Source of the DNA: Nanobdellati archaeon
GTDB lineage: Archaea > EX4484-52 > GLR71
Assembly: GCA_019429005.1 (NCBI GenBank)
Contig: JAHYJR010000001.1
Location: forward strand, 8,663-72,662
Direction of reading: 5' to 3'
DNA length: 64,000 bases
The translations under genes and the position numbers were made by a program. This document shows positions 52,596 to 64,000 of the stretch, in pieces; position 1 is the stretch's first letter, and the number at the start of each line of letters is the position of its first letter. Under the pieces are notes generated by a model, which worked only from the letters and a program-made list of their open reading frames with translations, did no database searches and had not been told where the DNA came from.

Positions 52596-55500
52596 TCAAT
52601 AATCATATATCGTAAATGTCTGACCTTCGTATATTGCACTATTTCCAGAAAAATCTGTAGCATTTACAGAAATATAAACAATTCCTGGAACTGTTGTTAG
52701 TATTGGCACACCTGCAGTAACCAATGAACAGTTAAAACCATAATACTGTGATAACACAACACCAGAACTATCTTTTAATGCAACACAATTAACAACATCA
52801 GATTCAATCTCCTTTTGAATTACCTTTGCAGTCATACTTGAAAGATTTTCGGATGGAATAACAAACAACGATATTTTAGACATATCTGTACTTGTATAAA
52901 CTCTTGATGGGGACACAGATATAGATTTTATTGTTGGAGGTACTTTATCTGAAGGTGTAACTTTCCTCATTGCCACAGGACCAACATTTCCAGCTAAATC
53001 TACAGACATAACAGATACTTCATATTCTATACCATTTTTAAGATCCGTTAAATAATGTATTGTATTTCGTACATGATCCATATAGATAACACCATCTAAC
53101 GAAATTGTATAATAATTAATATCAGAATCATCTTCATTAGGTGTCCAATATAAATATACCTCACCACCTTTCTCAGTATTTTCAACATTTAAATTTTCAA
53201 CAACGTGTGGTGGTTTCATATCATATAAAATTGATACAGTATCTTTATGCTCAACACTCTCATTATCAAAACCAGATAATGTTATAGATATAGGACCTTC
53301 GATTTGTTCGGGCGCTTTATCAAATAATATCGCTAAATCAACAAGTTTCATTTTATTAGACTCAGCATCAACATCTGTAAGGATGATTTCCTCTTCAATT
53401 GCACCCGCAGCAGGTTTAATCAAAAGCCAATAATTACCATTAGTCAAATTTACCTTGAAAGAAGACGAATAATTGATTTCTATAACAGCCCCTGTAAGAT
53501 TATTAACAGAACTATTTTTTACTGAAGTAATTACTAAAGAATTACCCACACAAACACCCATACTACATTTATTTGAGATACATTGACAATCAGTTGTACA
53601 AGTATCATCTACAACCTTTTCAAACGTACAAGACTCATACATACAAATCTCTTTAGTTGACGCTTTTGGAGAAATGCATGTCAATTTTTCACCACCAAGA
53701 TAATTCCCACAAACCCCTACATCATCACATTTACCACATTGATTATCTTCAGTACAAGGCTCATTAAGTGACTTATAACAAGCATCATCAGGTTCAGAAT
53801 CAATCTTGACTCGCACAGCCCATTCACCTGCAAAACCAGCATCTAACAATGGCACAACATCACGCACCCAATCAACAATTGAAACATCTTCAGCATAATA
53901 TTCTACAGTTACAGTATAATCCATATCTTCATATAAAATATACGGCTCGCTACCAGATGTAAAATCGTCAGTATATTTATAAGTGTCATCAGAATCGCCA
54001 CCATCAAACCACTGTAAATGTCCTTCATCTACAAGACACGAACTGCTCCAAAAAGATTTACTATCTGAAGATATTTTAAACAAATCATCGTTCCCTACAA
54101 TACTTTTTGAATTGACATCAGACGCATTACAGCCATCAAGATCAATCTTAAAACTAGTACAAGGTAAATTTGTAGTTTTTGTATCAAATATACCAGTACC
54201 TTCTGGATTATCACCACCATATTCAGACTGACAAAGACATATTGCTTTTGAAACAGAATTTCGTATCGTCTCAATATCACCAATTACTTCAGTACCAACA
54301 TCTAACTCCCCTGATGCCAGACTTGAACATTTGGGTACACTATCTGTCTTAGTCGTCGTAAAGGATACGCTTTTTTTAGTATCATATTTATAAAACACGT
54401 TTGACCGCATAAATACAGTTTTCTGTGTTGTAACAGGAGCCTTAAGTGTATCATAAAAAAATGTGCAACCATACATCTTAAGCTGATTTGGGGCTAATAT
54501 TCGTTTCTCACTTTCAAAAGTGTATTCCGGTGTACCTATTAATTTTTTTACCGCGGCATCATAATCAATCTTATACACATACCAACCAGCTTCATCCTTT
54601 TCTGGTTGAGGTAACTGACAATCATCAGTCTCATAATAATTTGCACAACGAGAATCATCAGGTGAATAAAGTGTTTTTGTAACAGCATCATAACATCCCG
54701 CAGGAACAAGAACCTCTGGTAAATATATCTTCAATATCGCAAGTTCAGCTTCACCATCTTTCTGATTATAAATACCAAACGAAACTCTAAAACTATCTCT
54801 CGGTTCATATCTCGAAATAACTGGTATTGGCTGTTTTTTACTTGTCCATGTTGAAAGTGTAAACGGTCCTGCTGAGGTTAAAGACCGACCATCAAACCAT
54901 TTCATTTTACCTTGTTTTACTTGCTCATCATAAAGAGTTCCATCCATCACAGTAATATCATTTGTTCCACTCGTATCATAATGATAAATAACGTGTGCAT
55001 CAATATCAAATGCTTTTGAAGAACATTTTGGTGCAGTCACTAATAATGAATATAATCTAGGTTCTCCAGGTAACAAAGATCCAACGGATTCTTCGGCAGA
55101 AGCACTACTTGAACCACCAAGACCACCACCCCGACCTATACTACCCCCTAAAGTCACAAAATCCTCGCTACCTTTAGCATAGACCATAACTTCATTTGCA
55201 ATTGAAACACCATCATTTTTTACTTCAAACTGTATATCTACAAGACCTCCCGGATATACTGCAGAAGGGTATGCCGAAATACCTTTAAACTCAAGCGCAC
55301 TTGATGACCCTACCTGAATTACAGAATCTTTTTGTTGTTTTTCTAATTCTGCCTGTTCCGGATCTGAAAACCATAACAAAGAACTTGTAAAAGAATCAAT
55401 AAATGAATCAATCGCACTACCCCCTACTTGTTTAGCATCATGAGTTGCAAGTGTTGATTTATCTGAATCCATATTTGAACTCCAAAAATAACTTAATATA

Positions 55501-56948
55501 GGTAACAAGAAAATAACAATAAGTGCAACAATGCCAAGAATAAAAGACCATTTTAAAATAGATTTAATAATTTCCCATGAACTCTTCTTTGGAGACATAA
55601 CAGATCTTAATTTGTTTGTATAATCTGAATTTGAAACTTTTGCTTTCGCCGCACCTAAAGCACCACCCACAAAAAATGCAGAGTTTTGGGTATTTGATTC
55701 TGAAGAGTCATCTAAATCTGAAATTTCTTCGGAACCTATAGTTTCATCTGTTTCGGGAATACGGTTATCTTCAGGATATAACAATCCGGCCCCCGTATCA
55801 CCTGAAGAATTCAGTTTTTCTTTTTCTAATTTTTCGGCAGCATCCTTTTCAGCAGCATCCTTTTCAGCAGCATCCTTTTCAGCAGCATCCTTTTCAGCAG
55901 CATCCTTTTCACGTTCATTTTCAACCAATTCTTCAGCTTCTTTTTCACGCTCTTTTAATTGTTCTTCTGTAAGTTCAATTTTATCTTTTTCAGTTTCAAC
56001 CAATTCTTCAGCATCTTTTTCTACATGATCTTCATTTTCTTTTAAATCTTCATCATCATCATCTTCGCCTTCTGATTTACCAACTTCCTTCTCAGGTTCT
56101 TTTGGTTCTTCAGGTGTTTCTTCTTCATCTTCTTCTGCTTTCTGTTCTTCAACGGGTTCATCGCTTTCTGGAGCACCTGAAATCTTCTCATCTAACATTG
56201 AAACTTTCTCAAGTTCGGTTTCTTCAGCTTTAATTTCGGATTCATTCTCATGTATATCTTGAAAAGAACTTTCAACATCTTGTTCTGTGCTATCAACATT
56301 TTGACTAAGACCTGCTACAACAGAAGGATCAACATCAGAACCTGCATCTACAACTGCAGAATCAACATCTTCAGTTTTAGACACCTCTTGAGCATTTGCT
56401 TCTCCAGATTCAGCCGTTACTAGAGGATTACTCGAACGAGAATATGCTTGCGAAAACACTTCTGAACTACCTTGTGCAATGAAATTAATTGGATTCTCGG
56501 AACTACCCAACACCGGTCCTGTTGGCTCTTCAACAGCCTTCGGAATAGTTTCTTTTAAATTCTGAATATCCTCTTCAAACATTTTCAGATTATCAGCTTG
56601 ATTCGCTATAACCTCACGAGAGACCGTTTGTTCATTTAAAATATTTTCAAATAAATCATTATTTTCTACTTGAACGTTTTGTATTTCATTAACATTATCA
56701 TCAATAACGCCTACTTTTTCCTCCAATTTTGAGTGCGTTTCGTCAATATTTGGACTCTTTATATTATTATTAATATTCACATGTATCTCAGGTGAACCTC
56801 CAAAATCATTTTCAGCAGGCACTTCAGACGGCAAAAGACTTTCTTTTTTACGAGAAAAACGACCTAAAATACGTGATATTGCATTTTTTAAACGGACTTT
56901 ATTTGAGGGTTCAGAAACAACAGATTCTTCAGAATTTTCATCACCCAT
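52596..56948 (-). CDS. 1450-aa single-span envelope protein with paralog-family ectodomain and FN3
   Basis: Residues 1-~458 are acidic, disordered or coiled-coil and cytoplasmic, with five KDAAE repeats near 346-370. A membrane helix (WSFILGIVALIVIFLLPILS, about 466-488) follows. The exterior part begins with a region related to the lipoproteins (FEVKNDGVSIANEVMVYA, LLPGEPRLYSLLVTAPK, SAGPFTLSTW, about 560-920). A Cys-rich region with CTEDNQCGKCDDVGVCG and CISNKCSMGVC (about 1050-1132), an FN3 domain (about 1245-1340) and a last Ig-like domain follow. GGTGTT precedes ATG 56948. It could be a surface scaffold linking cytoplasm and envelope; this is inference. Confidence 0.75.
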   Translation of the reverse strand: MGDENSEESVVSEPSNKVRLKNAISRILGRFSRKKESLLPSEVPAENDFGGSPEIHVNINNNIKSPNIDETHSKLEEKVGVIDDNVNEIQNVQVENNDLFENILNEQTVSREVIANQADNLKMFEEDIQNLKETIPKAVEEPTGPVLGSSENPINFIAQGSSEVFSQAYSRSSNPLVTAESGEANAQEVSKTEDVDSAVVDAGSDVDPSVVAGLSQNVDSTEQDVESSFQDIHENESEIKAEETELEKVSMLDEKISGAPESDEPVEEQKAEEDEEETPEEPKEPEKEVGKSEGEDDDDEDLKENEDHVEKDAEELVETEKDKIELTEEQLKEREKEAEELVENEREKDAAEKDAAEKDAAEKDAAEKDAAEKLEKEKLNSSGDTGAGLLYPEDNRIPETDETIGSEEISDLDDSSESNTQNSAFFVGGALGAAKAKVSNSDYTNKLRSVMSPKKSSWEIIKSILKWSFILGIVALIVIFLLPILSYFWSSNMDSDKSTLATHDAKQVGGSAIDSFIDSFTSSLLWFSDPEQAELEKQQKDSVIQVGSSSALEFKGISAYPSAVYPGGLVDIQFEVKNDGVSIANEVMVYAKGSEDFVTLGGSIGRGGGLGGSSSASAEESVGSLLPGEPRLYSLLVTAPKCSSKAFDIDAHVIYHYDTSGTNDITVMDGTLYDEQVKQGKMKWFDGRSLTSAGPFTLSTWTSKKQPIPVISRYEPRDSFRVSFGIYNQKDGEAELAILKIYLPEVLVPAGCYDAVTKTLYSPDDSRCANYYETDDCQLPQPEKDEAGWYVYKIDYDAAVKKLIGTPEYTFESEKRILAPNQLKMYGCTFFYDTLKAPVTTQKTVFMRSNVFYKYDTKKSVSFTTTKTDSVPKCSSLASGELDVGTEVIGDIETIRNSVSKAICLCQSEYGGDNPEGTGIFDTKTTNLPCTSFKIDLDGCNASDVNSKSIVGNDDLFKISSDSKSFWSSSCLVDEGHLQWFDGGDSDDTYKYTDDFTSGSEPYILYEDMDYTVTVEYYAEDVSIVDWVRDVVPLLDAGFAGEWAVRVKIDSEPDDACYKSLNEPCTEDNQCGKCDDVGVCGNYLGGEKLTCISPKASTKEICMYESCTFEKVVDDTCTTDCQCISNKCSMGVCVGNSLVITSVKNSSVNNLTGAVIEINYSSSFKVNLTNGNYWLLIKPAAGAIEEEIILTDVDAESNKMKLVDLAILFDKAPEQIEGPISITLSGFDNESVEHKDTVSILYDMKPPHVVENLNVENTEKGGEVYLYWTPNEDDSDINYYTISLDGVIYMDHVRNTIHYLTDLKNGIEYEVSVMSVDLAGNVGPVAMRKVTPSDKVPPTIKSISVSPSRVYTSTDMSKISLFVIPSENLSSMTAKVIQKEIESDVVNCVALKDSSGVVLSQYYGFNCSLVTAGVPILTTVPGIVYISVNATDFSGNSAIYEGQTFTIYDY
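55837..55911 (-). repeat. 15-bp coding repeat, five copies
   Basis: Five perfect plus-strand copies of gcagcatccttttca encode KDAAE five times in the cytoplasmic region of the 1450-aa protein. Perfect DNA identity points to recent slippage and likely length variation between strains. Confidence 0.95.
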
Positions 56949-59875: not shown

Positions 59876-59919
59876 AAGTATCCCTATTAATAATTATACA
59901 TAATAGATTATATAAAAAT

Positions 59920-60081
59920 TGGCGCGAGGGACGAGATTTGAACTCGTGCGGGCTAAAAGCCCAGTAGCTTACAGCCATCAAATGCTTATTTAAAGCATAT
60001 TCAGTTAGCAGGCTACCGCCATATCCTACGAATAGACCTTAATTCTAAACTCAAATTCGAACCAGGCTAGGCGACCCTCGC
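59920..60081 (-). tRNA. tRNA-Ser (GCT) with two introns (D loop and 37/38)
   Basis: On the minus strand from 60081: acceptor GCGAGGG/CCCTCGC, D stem GCC/GGC, anticodon stem GTAGC/GCTAC, long variable arm TGGGC-TTTT-AGCCC, T arm ACGAG/CTCGT with TTCAAAT, discriminator G73 (59923) and encoded CCA (59922-59920). An intron of about 38 nt (about 60061-60024) splits the D loop after G18-G19; its CGAAT/ATTCG stem and CCT/AGG helix form a bulge-helix-bulge. A 36-nt intron (60005-59970) follows A37 of anticodon loop CTGCTAA. The mature length of about 85 nt fits tRNA-Ser. Confidence 0.88.
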
Positions 60082-60230
60082 ATTTATTGAAAACATATAC
60101 AAAATACAAAAGTATTAAACTATTTATAATTCAAAACTTTAAATATTAAACAGTAAAAAGACTATTTTAAACAAAAGTTAATAAATATTAACAATGTATT
60201 ATAGTTTATTATAATATTTGGTGGTTTTAT

Positions 60231-61251: not shown

Positions 61252-61590
61252 ATGACAACGAAAAAAGAGTTTATTAAAAAAAGATCTACATTTGATAAAA
61301 ATCATATGATTTTATTTACAATAATTATACTCTTAGGACTTCTAGTATTAACACACCAAAATTACATTAACACACCGAAAATAAAAAGTGATATTTCAGC
61401 ATGTAAAACATTCTGTACTACACACCCACAAATAACTGGTGCTATTTATGGCGGTATTGATAACAACGGACATTGTCTTTGTAAAATATCGCAAACAATT
61501 AATAATATACAAGAAAACAAAAATATGGATGTAACTATTTTTGTAGATGTCGGTATTGTTGAAAAAGCAATATTAACAGACTCACCTTAA
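61252..61590 (+). CDS. Small single-span protein with exterior Cys motifs
   Basis: A 112-aa protein. It has a basic N-terminus (KKEFIKKRSTFDKNH), a membrane helix (MILFTIIILLGLLVLTH), and an exterior part with CKTFC and HCLCKI. The layout resembles the protein at 21902-22312, suggesting a family of small envelope proteins with CxC ends. Its 3' end overlaps the stop of nrdG on the other strand by 9 bp. Function unknown. Confidence 0.55.
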   Translation: MTTKKEFIKKRSTFDKNHMILFTIIILLGLLVLTHQNYINTPKIKSDISACKTFCTTHPQITGAIYGGIDNNGHCLCKISQTINNIQENKNMDVTIFVDVGIVEKAILTDSP

Positions 61591-62292
61591 ACGCATCTTT
61601 GTATTAACACTTTTAGATGCAACTAATACCATCTCAACTAGAACTGATTCATCATAAGGTTTAAGTTTTTTCAAACCAGACTCTAGTGTTTCTTTTGGAT
61701 TAAATTGTTGAAGAACATATAATTTTGCAGAAGTTATATATTTGGAGATTAATTCAATATCTTCAAGTGTAACATACCCAGGAACAACAGTTGTTCTGAA
61801 TTCATGATCAACACCAGATTTAATTATTAAATCAATCGTTTTTTTAATTATTTCAACAGAAATAGGAACATTAATTATATTTTGATATTTATCATCAACA
61901 AGTGCGGTTTTTATATCCATCGCAATATAATCAACAAGACCATCATCAATAAATTTATTAATTACATCAGGATGTGTGCCATTTGTGTCTAATTTTATAA
62001 AAAAACCTAAATTCTTAATTTGTTTCAAAAAAAGATATAAGGCCTCATTATGTATTGTCGGTTCGCCACCTGTAATAGTAACGCCATCAATCCACTCTTT
62101 ATTTTCCTTTAAAAAATCTAAAATCGCTTGCTTATCTACAAGCTCAAACTTTTTATCATTTAATACAAGTTCATGATTATGACAAAAATTACATCTAAAA
62201 TTACATTTGGGTAAAAAAACAACAGAGGTCACTTTACCTTCCCAATCAATAAAAGATGTTCCAATAAAACCCGCAATACGTAATTTGCTAAT
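61582..62292 (-). CDS. nrdG: Anaerobic ribonucleotide reductase activase (radical SAM)
   Basis: Makes the glycyl radical on NrdD. The radical SAM motif CNFRCNFCHN, VTITGGEP and LDTNGTHPDVI are present. The conserved family start continues upstream of GTG 62232: LRIAGFIGTSFIDWEGKVTS. A 236-aa protein begins at 62292 with ATT, preceded by GAGGT; no ATG, GTG or TTG is in frame before a stop. ATT overlaps the TAG of the redoxin gene. GTG 62232 would remove about 20 conserved residues. Third gene of the nrdD operon. Confidence 0.85.
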   Translation of the reverse strand: MSKLRIAGFIGTSFIDWEGKVTSVVFLPKCNFRCNFCHNHELVLNDKKFELVDKQAILDFLKENKEWIDGVTITGGEPTIHNEALYLFLKQIKNLGFFIKLDTNGTHPDVINKFIDDGLVDYIAMDIKTALVDDKYQNIINVPISVEIIKKTIDLIIKSGVDHEFRTTVVPGYVTLEDIELISKYITSAKLYVLQQFNPKETLESGLKKLKPYDESVLVEMVLVASKSVNTKMRLR

Positions 62293-62548
62293 TTTGTATT
62301 ACCTCTGACAATTGAGTTTTATCTGGTATCTGTGAACGCCAGGATATAATTTCAGAATCATCATCATCAACAACAATTGTTGTGGGTGTCCCCATAACAC
62401 CATAAAAAGTTGCTTCAGCCATACCATCAACATTGTTTATGTTATATTCTTTAACAGAAACTTCACTACCTGACATAACCAATCTAACTAAATCTTTTGC
62501 CGCTGGACAATTTGGACATTTGTCCTGCCAAAATATTTTTACTTCCAT
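62288..62548 (-). CDS. Thioredoxin/glutaredoxin-like small redoxin
   Basis: An 86-aa redoxin. It begins MEVKIFWQDKCPNCPAAKDL with the CPNC active site, then GVMGTPTTIVVDDDDSE with the cis-proline of the thioredoxin fold. Placed between nrdD and nrdG in one operon, it is probably the electron donor for the anaerobic reductase, an NrdH-like role inferred from context. It overlaps nrdG. GGTGGT lies before the ATG. Confidence 0.85.
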   Translation of the reverse strand: MEVKIFWQDKCPNCPAAKDLVRLVMSGSEVSVKEYNINNVDGMAEATFYGVMGTPTTIVVDDDDSEIISWRSQIPDKTQLSEVIQN

Positions 62549-62693
62549 ACCATAACCACCAAATCATAAAATAAAATATAAGAAAACCTAAAAATATTTA
62601 GATTCATTATATATTAACATTTGCTATCCTATAATGTATACATCCCATTACACATACTAAAATATACATGTAAAAGATACAAAGATATAACAC

Positions 62694-64000
62694 TTATGAT
62701 AAATTATAAGACCTATAACGATCCCTTAATTCTGCAAGTTTGCCTTTATTCCAATTACTTGTGGTTGACAAATATCCAGTCACTCTTGTTATACCATCAA
62801 CATTTACAGAACTACAAGATTGACAACGGTCAATAAGACCGCGTACTACTTTATGACAACTCTTACAAAATGTAAACTCTGGCGAAAAAGCAATCTGTGT
62901 ATTTTGTGTATTTGTAAATGTCTTCTTTACAAAACTGCCAAGTGCAGAGGGATCTGGTCTTGAATCTCCAAGCCATACATGAGTCAGTGCACCTGCATCA
63001 ATAAGTGGATGAAACATACCTTCTTGTGTAACTCTCTTTATCGGGGACATAGGAACACCAACATTAAGATATGTTGAATTTGTATAATACATCTCAGACG
63101 TTGTAAAATCACCTTTCACAACTTTTGCAACTTCATTAGGATATCTTTCACGATCAAGATGTGCAAGACGATATGCAGTTGATTCGGCGGGTGTCTGCTC
63201 AAGAGCAAAATGAAGTCCTGTCTTTTCAGAAAGTTCACGCTGTTTCTTACCCATATGTACAATAACCTTAAGACCAAATTTAATAGCTTTATTAGATTCA
63301 TGCAATTCTTCACCAAGATGAAACTGTACAAGTTCATTAAGTCCAAGCATACCCATCAAAAAAGACGCCCTTTCAAATCTATAATAAGGTTCACCATCAA
63401 GATCCATTGTAAGAATTGGAAGCGAACCTGCCGAACCTTGTGCTAATATTTTACGTATAAATTCTTTTTTCTCTATATGTGCTTGAGCCGCAAGTTCTAA
63501 ACTCTCATCAATATATTCAAATAATTTACTATCATCGCCCTTTGCAGCATAAGCTGCTCTTGGAAGATTTATTGTTACATTTTGCATTGCAGAATATCTC
63601 ATTTTCCATGGCTGTTTAGCATCTAACAAATCATTCTCATTAAGCTTAAATTGTAATCTACAACATTCACTAATTTTTGCTTCGTCACCACGATCAAAAA
63701 TAAAATAAGTATTCCCCATTTTTGAACCCACTTCACACGCAAGATCCATCATTTCCTCATGACCTTCAGTTTTGAAAAATTTATCAGTCACATGGAAATC
63801 CGGTTTTGGAAAAAAGAAAGGTCTTCCATAATTATCCCCTTTAAGATAAACTTCAAAAGCAGCTTTCATAAATGCTTGAGATTCACCAAGATACTCAGAA
63901 TAATTATTACCTGTATATTTACCACCTGGACCTATTGCTGGAACATCGCTAAAATGCTTTGGTATCTCCCAATAATAATTTGTATCTGTAAATGTAACCT
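62694..64000 (-). CDS. nrdD: Anaerobic ribonucleoside-triphosphate reductase, 5' end outside window
   Basis: Oxygen-sensitive class III reductase that makes dNTPs. The visible part (about 435 C-terminal residues) holds FFFPKPDFHV, ISECCRLQF, LLDAKQPWKMRYSAMQNVTINLPR, the zinc-binding CKSCHKVVRGLIDRCQSC and the glycyl-radical loop RVTGYLSTTSNWNKGK with the radical Gly in VTGYL. The frame stays open past ATG 63869 to the window edge, so the gene continues to the right. It lies 145 bp before the redoxin and nrdG genes. Confidence 0.95.
   Translation of the reverse strand, partial: VTFTDTNYYWEIPKHFSDVPAIGPGGKYTGNNYSEYLGESQAFMKAAFEVYLKGDNYGRPFFFPKPDFHVTDKFFKTEGHEEMMDLACEVGSKMGNTYFIFDRGDEAKISECCRLQFKLNENDLLDAKQPWKMRYSAMQNVTINLPRAAYAAKGDDSKLFEYIDESLELAAQAHIEKKEFIRKILAQGSAGSLPILTMDLDGEPYYRFERASFLMGMLGLNELVQFHLGEELHESNKAIKFGLKVIVHMGKKQRELSEKTGLHFALEQTPAESTAYRLAHLDRERYPNEVAKVVKGDFTTSEMYYTNSTYLNVGVPMSPIKRVTQEGMFHPLIDAGALTHVWLGDSRPDPSALGSFVKKTFTNTQNTQIAFSPEFTFCKSCHKVVRGLIDRCQSCSSVNVDGITRVTGYLSTTSNWNKGKLAELRDRYRSYNLS

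Follow-up and report, generated by a model that had tools for sequence, protein, structure and literature searches.

The minus strand of the window, by which we mean the whole 64,000-nucleotide stretch of DNA analysed here, carries an interrupted tRNA-Ser(GCU) gene with its 5' end at 60081, the anticodon GCU, a long variable arm, the discriminator base G73 and an encoded CCA at 59920-59922 (Table 1). The tRNA is broken after U20 and before A21 in the D loop, and again after A37 and before A38 in the anticodon loop. A sequence-only reading of the locus had proposed a tRNA with two introns of 38 nt and 36 nt at these places, and both the sizes and the positions are borne out by the fold, the splice-site geometry and the intronless orthologues. 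A candidate TATA box, TTATAAATA, has a spacing that agrees with the 30-49 nt described upstream of tRNA genes in Thermofilum (PMC3218864), but given the AT-rich DNA it is suggestive only, while the T5 run that follows the CCA may be the terminator.

Table 1. Features of the tRNA-Ser(GCU) locus, numbered as in the window.
Feature	Position	Strand	Basis
Pre-tRNA-Ser(GCU) gene	59920..60081	-	Fold, intron-tolerant covariance model, orthologues
Exon 1 (nucleotides 1-20): 5' strands of acceptor and D stems, D loop as far as U20	60061..60081	-	Alignment with intronless orthologues
D-loop intron, 38 nt, position 20/21	60023..60060	-	Register pairing; exactly missing in tRNA-Ser(GCT) of G009, G020 and G024
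CCUG, exon half of the central splice helix (4 bp), pairing with UAGG at 60025-60028	60063..60066	-	Fold and register test
Exon 2 (nucleotides 21-37): 3' strand of the D stem, 5' strand of the anticodon stem, GCU anticodon	60006..60022	-	Orthologue alignment
Relaxed 36-nt intron of the anticodon loop, at 37/38	59970..60005	-	Pairing; not present in orthologues
Exon 3 (nucleotides 38-73): 3' strands of anticodon and acceptor stems, long variable and T arms, G73	59923..59969	-	Fold and orthologues
Candidate TATA box TTATAAATA	60122..60130	-	Sequence; lies 41-49 nt before the 5' end of the tRNA gene
Candidate terminator, T5 run directly after CCA	59914..59918	-	Sequence

Two other features of the window can be mentioned. 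A 1450-aa ORF (52596-56948, minus strand) has an acidic repetitive stretch of repeated EKDAA units, and its product is possibly a surface or secreted protein. At 61582-63998, on the same strand, an anaerobic ribonucleotide reductase (NRDD) has a radical SAM protein and a small ORF of thioredoxin-like type nearby.

Interrupted tRNA genes of this type escape standard finders, as the present one demonstrates. With introns allowed, ARAGORN called no tRNA at 59920-60081, and Rfam matched the T arm only, at 12.5 bits in the genome-wide search. An intron-aware covariance model, which had been suggested earlier as a check, gives 85.2 bits across the whole gene when insertions are tolerated at both sites, its training set having partly included the sequence itself. 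The minimum-energy fold contains the acceptor stem, the D stem, the helices of the D-loop intron, the anticodon stem, the long variable arm and the T arm, and both insertions fold as separate hairpin structures within the cloverleaf. None of 200 shuffles is as stable (z = -3.7).

Excision of the 38 nt and 36 nt yields a complete tRNA that matches the orthologues in related genomes. Six genomes of the same family have a tRNA-Ser(GCT) without introns, to which the exons align with one D-loop base different, and in three genomes of another family (G009, G020 and G024) the D arm, GCCTAGCCTGGTATGGCG, is exactly the one obtained here after removal of the 38 nt. An order-wide scan of 34 genomes with the intron-tolerant model, which obtained tRNA-Ser(GCT) from part of them, read intronless copies in 14. 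Two further copies, in G010 (L201) and G021 (L202) of another family, are interrupted in the T loop instead of carrying the D-loop and anticodon introns. Among the copies read, this pair of introns occurs only in the window genome, and the D-loop intron was probably gained in the window lineage, or else lost in the relatives.

We now consider the geometry of the two splice sites. In the 38-nt register, the D-loop site forms a complete central helix (CCUG/UAGG, 4/4) and a complete intron helix H' (CGAAU/AUUCG, 5/5), with the 3-nt bulges GU|U and AU|A at the splice points. There is no adjacent outer helix, and the 3' bulge lies within a 3x4 internal loop (UAG opposite AUAU). Because its outer side is an internal loop, the site is HBh'-like and not a full hBHBh', being relaxed on that side only. 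The earlier description of this intron as non-canonical is right in that it is displaced from 37/38, but the argument drawn from it is not supported as it stood: position 20/21 is already listed for archaea (PMC4090602), and both the 4-bp helix and the 5-bp intron helix are perfect.

A different boundary was also considered, with an intron of 37 nt or one register off that leaves a 12-nt D loop (GGUUAU). Genus g3 offers a parallel, its tRNA-Ser(GCT) having a D loop that is one base longer (GGCCAU). We regard this as improbable, since none of 12 neighbouring 38-nt registers and 10 37-nt registers pairs as well as the U20/A21 one, the 37-nt registers reaching at best 3/4 in the central helix with 2/5 in H', and since the D arms of G009, G020 and G024 agree exactly with the 38-nt product. 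When the register is held exact, 33 of 20,000 dinucleotide-shuffled D-loop introns reach 4/4 plus at least 4/5. A laxer fold-based test, passed by 430 of 2000 shuffles of the D-loop intron, is not discriminating, which means that the comparative evidence weighs most. The anticodon intron, at the 37/38 position, has a relaxed motif with a central helix of 3/4 (one U-U), the bulges UA|A and UA|A and a weak intron helix H'. This hBH-like site is the looser of the two.

Of the 1072 serine codons in window ORFs with a length of 200 aa or more, 305 (about 28%) are AGU or AGC, so the tRNA-Ser(GCU) gene is presumably essential. A second intact copy elsewhere had been named as the observation that would speak against two-intron splicing; genome searches that included the intron-tolerant covariance model found none in the assembly (93.6% complete, 15 contigs). 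It could be argued that the locus is a pseudogene, decayed by two random insertions, and that a functional copy sits in a gap of the incomplete assembly, which would also agree with the fact that standard finders miss the gene. However, all stems, the anticodon, G73 and the encoded CCA are intact, both insertions are at known intron positions and have splice-site pairing, excision restores the D arm of the relatives exactly, and no other copy was found in the assembly, all of which makes decay highly improbable.

We consider it very probable that the locus is a functional, and apparently the only, tRNA-Ser(GCU) gene, with two BHB-type introns that would be cut by a single EndA and joined by RtcB. 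The points against this reading are the missing outer helix at the D-loop site, the weakness of the fold-based shuffle test and a genome that is 93.6% complete in 15 contigs. In the proposed mechanism, the transcript would form two splice sites: one in the D loop, HBh'-like, from which the 38 nt separating U20 from A21 would be removed, and one at 37/38, hBH-like, which would lose 36 nt. The genome's only EndA would cut at both sites, and RtcB, for which there is one gene, would join the exons. Until the D-loop intron leaves, U17a and G18 would be held in the intron helix and the contact between the D loop and the T loop would be blocked. We infer transcription, cleavage, ligation, the order of splicing, RtcB activity and the oligomer state of EndA from the sequence. 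It had also been suggested that modification of G15, G18 and G19 depends on splicing; with U17a and G18 in the splice helix and one TGT-family gene in the genome, this is plausible.

The Ser D-loop intron is one of a number of T-loop and D-loop introns that occur across the family. About 38 tRNA genes are readable in the window genome, with about 18 introns, of which 11 are at 37/38 and 7 are non-canonical (5 T-loop, 2 D-loop); this census was compiled by reading strong and weak Rfam matches, and targeted stretches of the genome, by hand. The T-loop introns are near-strict BHBs, located at 59/60 in Gly-UCC, Asp, Lys-CUU and Glu-UUC and at 58/59 in Ala-UGC, and in each of the four 59/60 cases UUCA pairs 4/4 with UGAA or UGGA. 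The D-loop introns are those of Ser-GCU and Leu-UAA. Five genomes of the same family also have a D-loop intron in tRNA-Leu (CAA by hand reading), and the splice registers of the Leu introns are less clear-cut than that of Ser.

Some individual introns deserve mention in their own right. The tRNA-Trp(CCA) gene (L026:1501-1660) is interrupted by an intron of 87 nt; in archaea, Trp introns often contain C/D box RNA. The tRNA-Glu(UUC) gene (L100, L024; G000:C11 about 279,530-279,806, minus strand) combines a 40-nt anticodon intron with a 161-nt T-loop intron, the latter exceeding the maximum of 129 nt given for archaeal tRNA introns (PMC4090602). In genome G003, four different tRNAs (L228, L232, L236, L237) have similar T-loop introns of ~104 nt that are 68-83% identical, which suggests recent intron spread. 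Such likeness among four tRNAs resembles the tRNA intron transposition of Thermoproteales (Fujishima 2010, as cited in PMC4033280), but here the lineage is DPANN and the sites are T-loop 59/60 ones, and the likeness concerns G003 and not the Ser D-loop intron.

Displaced or relaxed introns have been tied to splicing endonucleases of the (alpha-beta)2, epsilon2 or loop-bearing kinds (PMC6379350, PMC4033280), and a broad-specificity EndA had accordingly been predicted for this organism from the D-loop intron. What the genome contains is a single EndA gene of 187 aa with PF02778 and PF01974 (G000:C11:246123-246686, minus strand; L031:1474-2037, minus strand). Neither a second EndA gene or beta subunit nor a three-unit (epsilon-type) fusion was found in the 93.6% complete genome, and order members at 90-96% completeness likewise have one EndA each above the cut-off. 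The closest named relatives of the protein, at 72-73% identity, come from MAGs labelled Candidatus Nanohaloarchaea, Aenigmatarchaeota and DPANN group archaeon. Judged by these relatives, the organism would be a Nanohalarchaeota/Aenigmatarchaeota-like DPANN archaeon.

In being encoded by one gene, with both the N- and the C-terminal domain and a length near ~180 aa, this EndA is like the alpha4 enzymes, and its best solved match is the alpha4-type EndA of M. jannaschii (PDB 1A79). Y116 and H133 correspond to the catalytic Tyr and His in the alignment, whereas A164 takes the place of the catalytic Lys156 of M. jannaschii, so that the alpha4 Tyr-His-Lys triad lacks its Lys. The stretch between Tyr116 and His133 is also longer, 16 residues as compared to 9, and the inserted loop bears a conserved Gly-x-Lys.

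The same combination is found in the Nanohaloarchaeota- and Aenigmatarchaeota-labelled relatives. We aligned 108 EndA sequences, with identical ones removed and some genomes present twice with slightly different ends. The loop has at least 14 residues in 77 of them, and every one of these retains Tyr, His and the Gly-x-Lys of the loop. The triad Lys is missing in 76 of these 77 (60 Ala, 11 Ser, 4 Thr, 1 Met, with at most one truncated or misaligned end), cases that belong largely to one clade and are not independent events, and it is kept in 24 of the 31 short-loop sequences. Some short-loop EndAs labelled Diapherotrites or Micrarchaeota also lack the triad Lys, which means that the Gly-x-Lys loop cannot be the sole compensation for it. 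One genome (G059, L092) has two adjacent EndA genes, one of them also without the catalytic His, an arrangement that suggests a heteromeric enzyme.

Both the CSL of the A. pernix (alpha-beta)2 enzyme and the ASL of the ARMAN-2 epsilon2 enzyme (PDB 4FZ2) are inserted loops with a Lys, as is the loop found here, and in the alignment the Tyr-His stretch of the ARMAN-2 EndA is extended too. However, K44 of the CSL and K161 of the ASL lie ~75 residues before the catalytic Tyr, while the loop Lys of the window EndA lies between Tyr and His; assignment of the insertion to the CSL/ASL position was rejected, K44 of A. pernix being upstream of the catalytic Tyr. Around K44 the alignment gives no counterpart of that length; the corresponding stretch, KIIEEEKIKY, is about six residues shorter, its Lys is not conserved in the clade, and no N-terminal inserted loop with a conserved Lys is thus seen. 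Furthermore, A. pernix and ARMAN-2 keep the catalytic Lys, and the window EndA has neither that Lys nor a beta subunit nor a three-unit fusion.

An EndA of one of the known broad-specificity kinds, (alpha-beta)2, epsilon2 or CSL-bearing, would be in line with the many non-canonical and sometimes relaxed sites of the genome, and introns of this sort accompany such enzymes in Crenarchaeota, Nanoarchaeum and ARMAN (PMC6379350, PMC4033280). Nevertheless, we find it unlikely for a lone, alpha-like protein of 187 aa without the CSL stretch, in an order whose nearly complete members also show one EndA each. The known markers, therefore, do not bear out the predicted enzyme, and the endA typing that had been proposed, carried out here by sequence, leads to a type that differs from the broad-specificity kinds in its lost Lys and inserted Tyr-His loop. 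As a tentative alternative, which we take to be a serious possibility, a clade-wide single-gene EndA without the catalytic Lys might splice both displaced and relaxed introns, with the Gly-x-Lys loop hypothetically aiding cutting or binding.

Non-canonical intron positions in archaeal tRNAs are known to include 20/21 and 59/60, also beside canonical introns, with Crenarchaeota and Nanoarchaeota as rich sources (PMC4090602). The present intron resembles the known 20/21 introns of Crenarchaeota/Thermoproteales and Nanoarchaeota (PMC4090602, PMC8450103) in position, motif type and the frequent 37/38 companion, but differs from them in its Nanohalarchaeota/Aenigmatarchaeota-like lineage, in the tRNA concerned, Ser(GCU), and in the lack of an EndA type usually linked to such introns. 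Nothing specific on tRNA introns or EndA in Nanohaloarchaeota/Aenigmarchaeota was found in the open-access literature, which is no proof of novelty. By its sequence, the window lineage does not fit the published list of EndA types tied to such introns.

The tRNA-Ser(GCU) gene is a further case, from a DPANN archaeon, of a known class of introns, the 20/21 position being already known, and an EndA without a residue thought essential for cutting is more surprising than the gene. Why an extra loop lysine is needed despite the triad has been described as unknown (PMC6379350), and this clade, with a loop lysine in another place and no triad lysine, is a natural test of that question. Against the published rule, essential tRNAs must here be processed by a single-gene EndA that has neither a CSL/ASL nor a heteromeric make-up and lacks the catalytic lysine as well.
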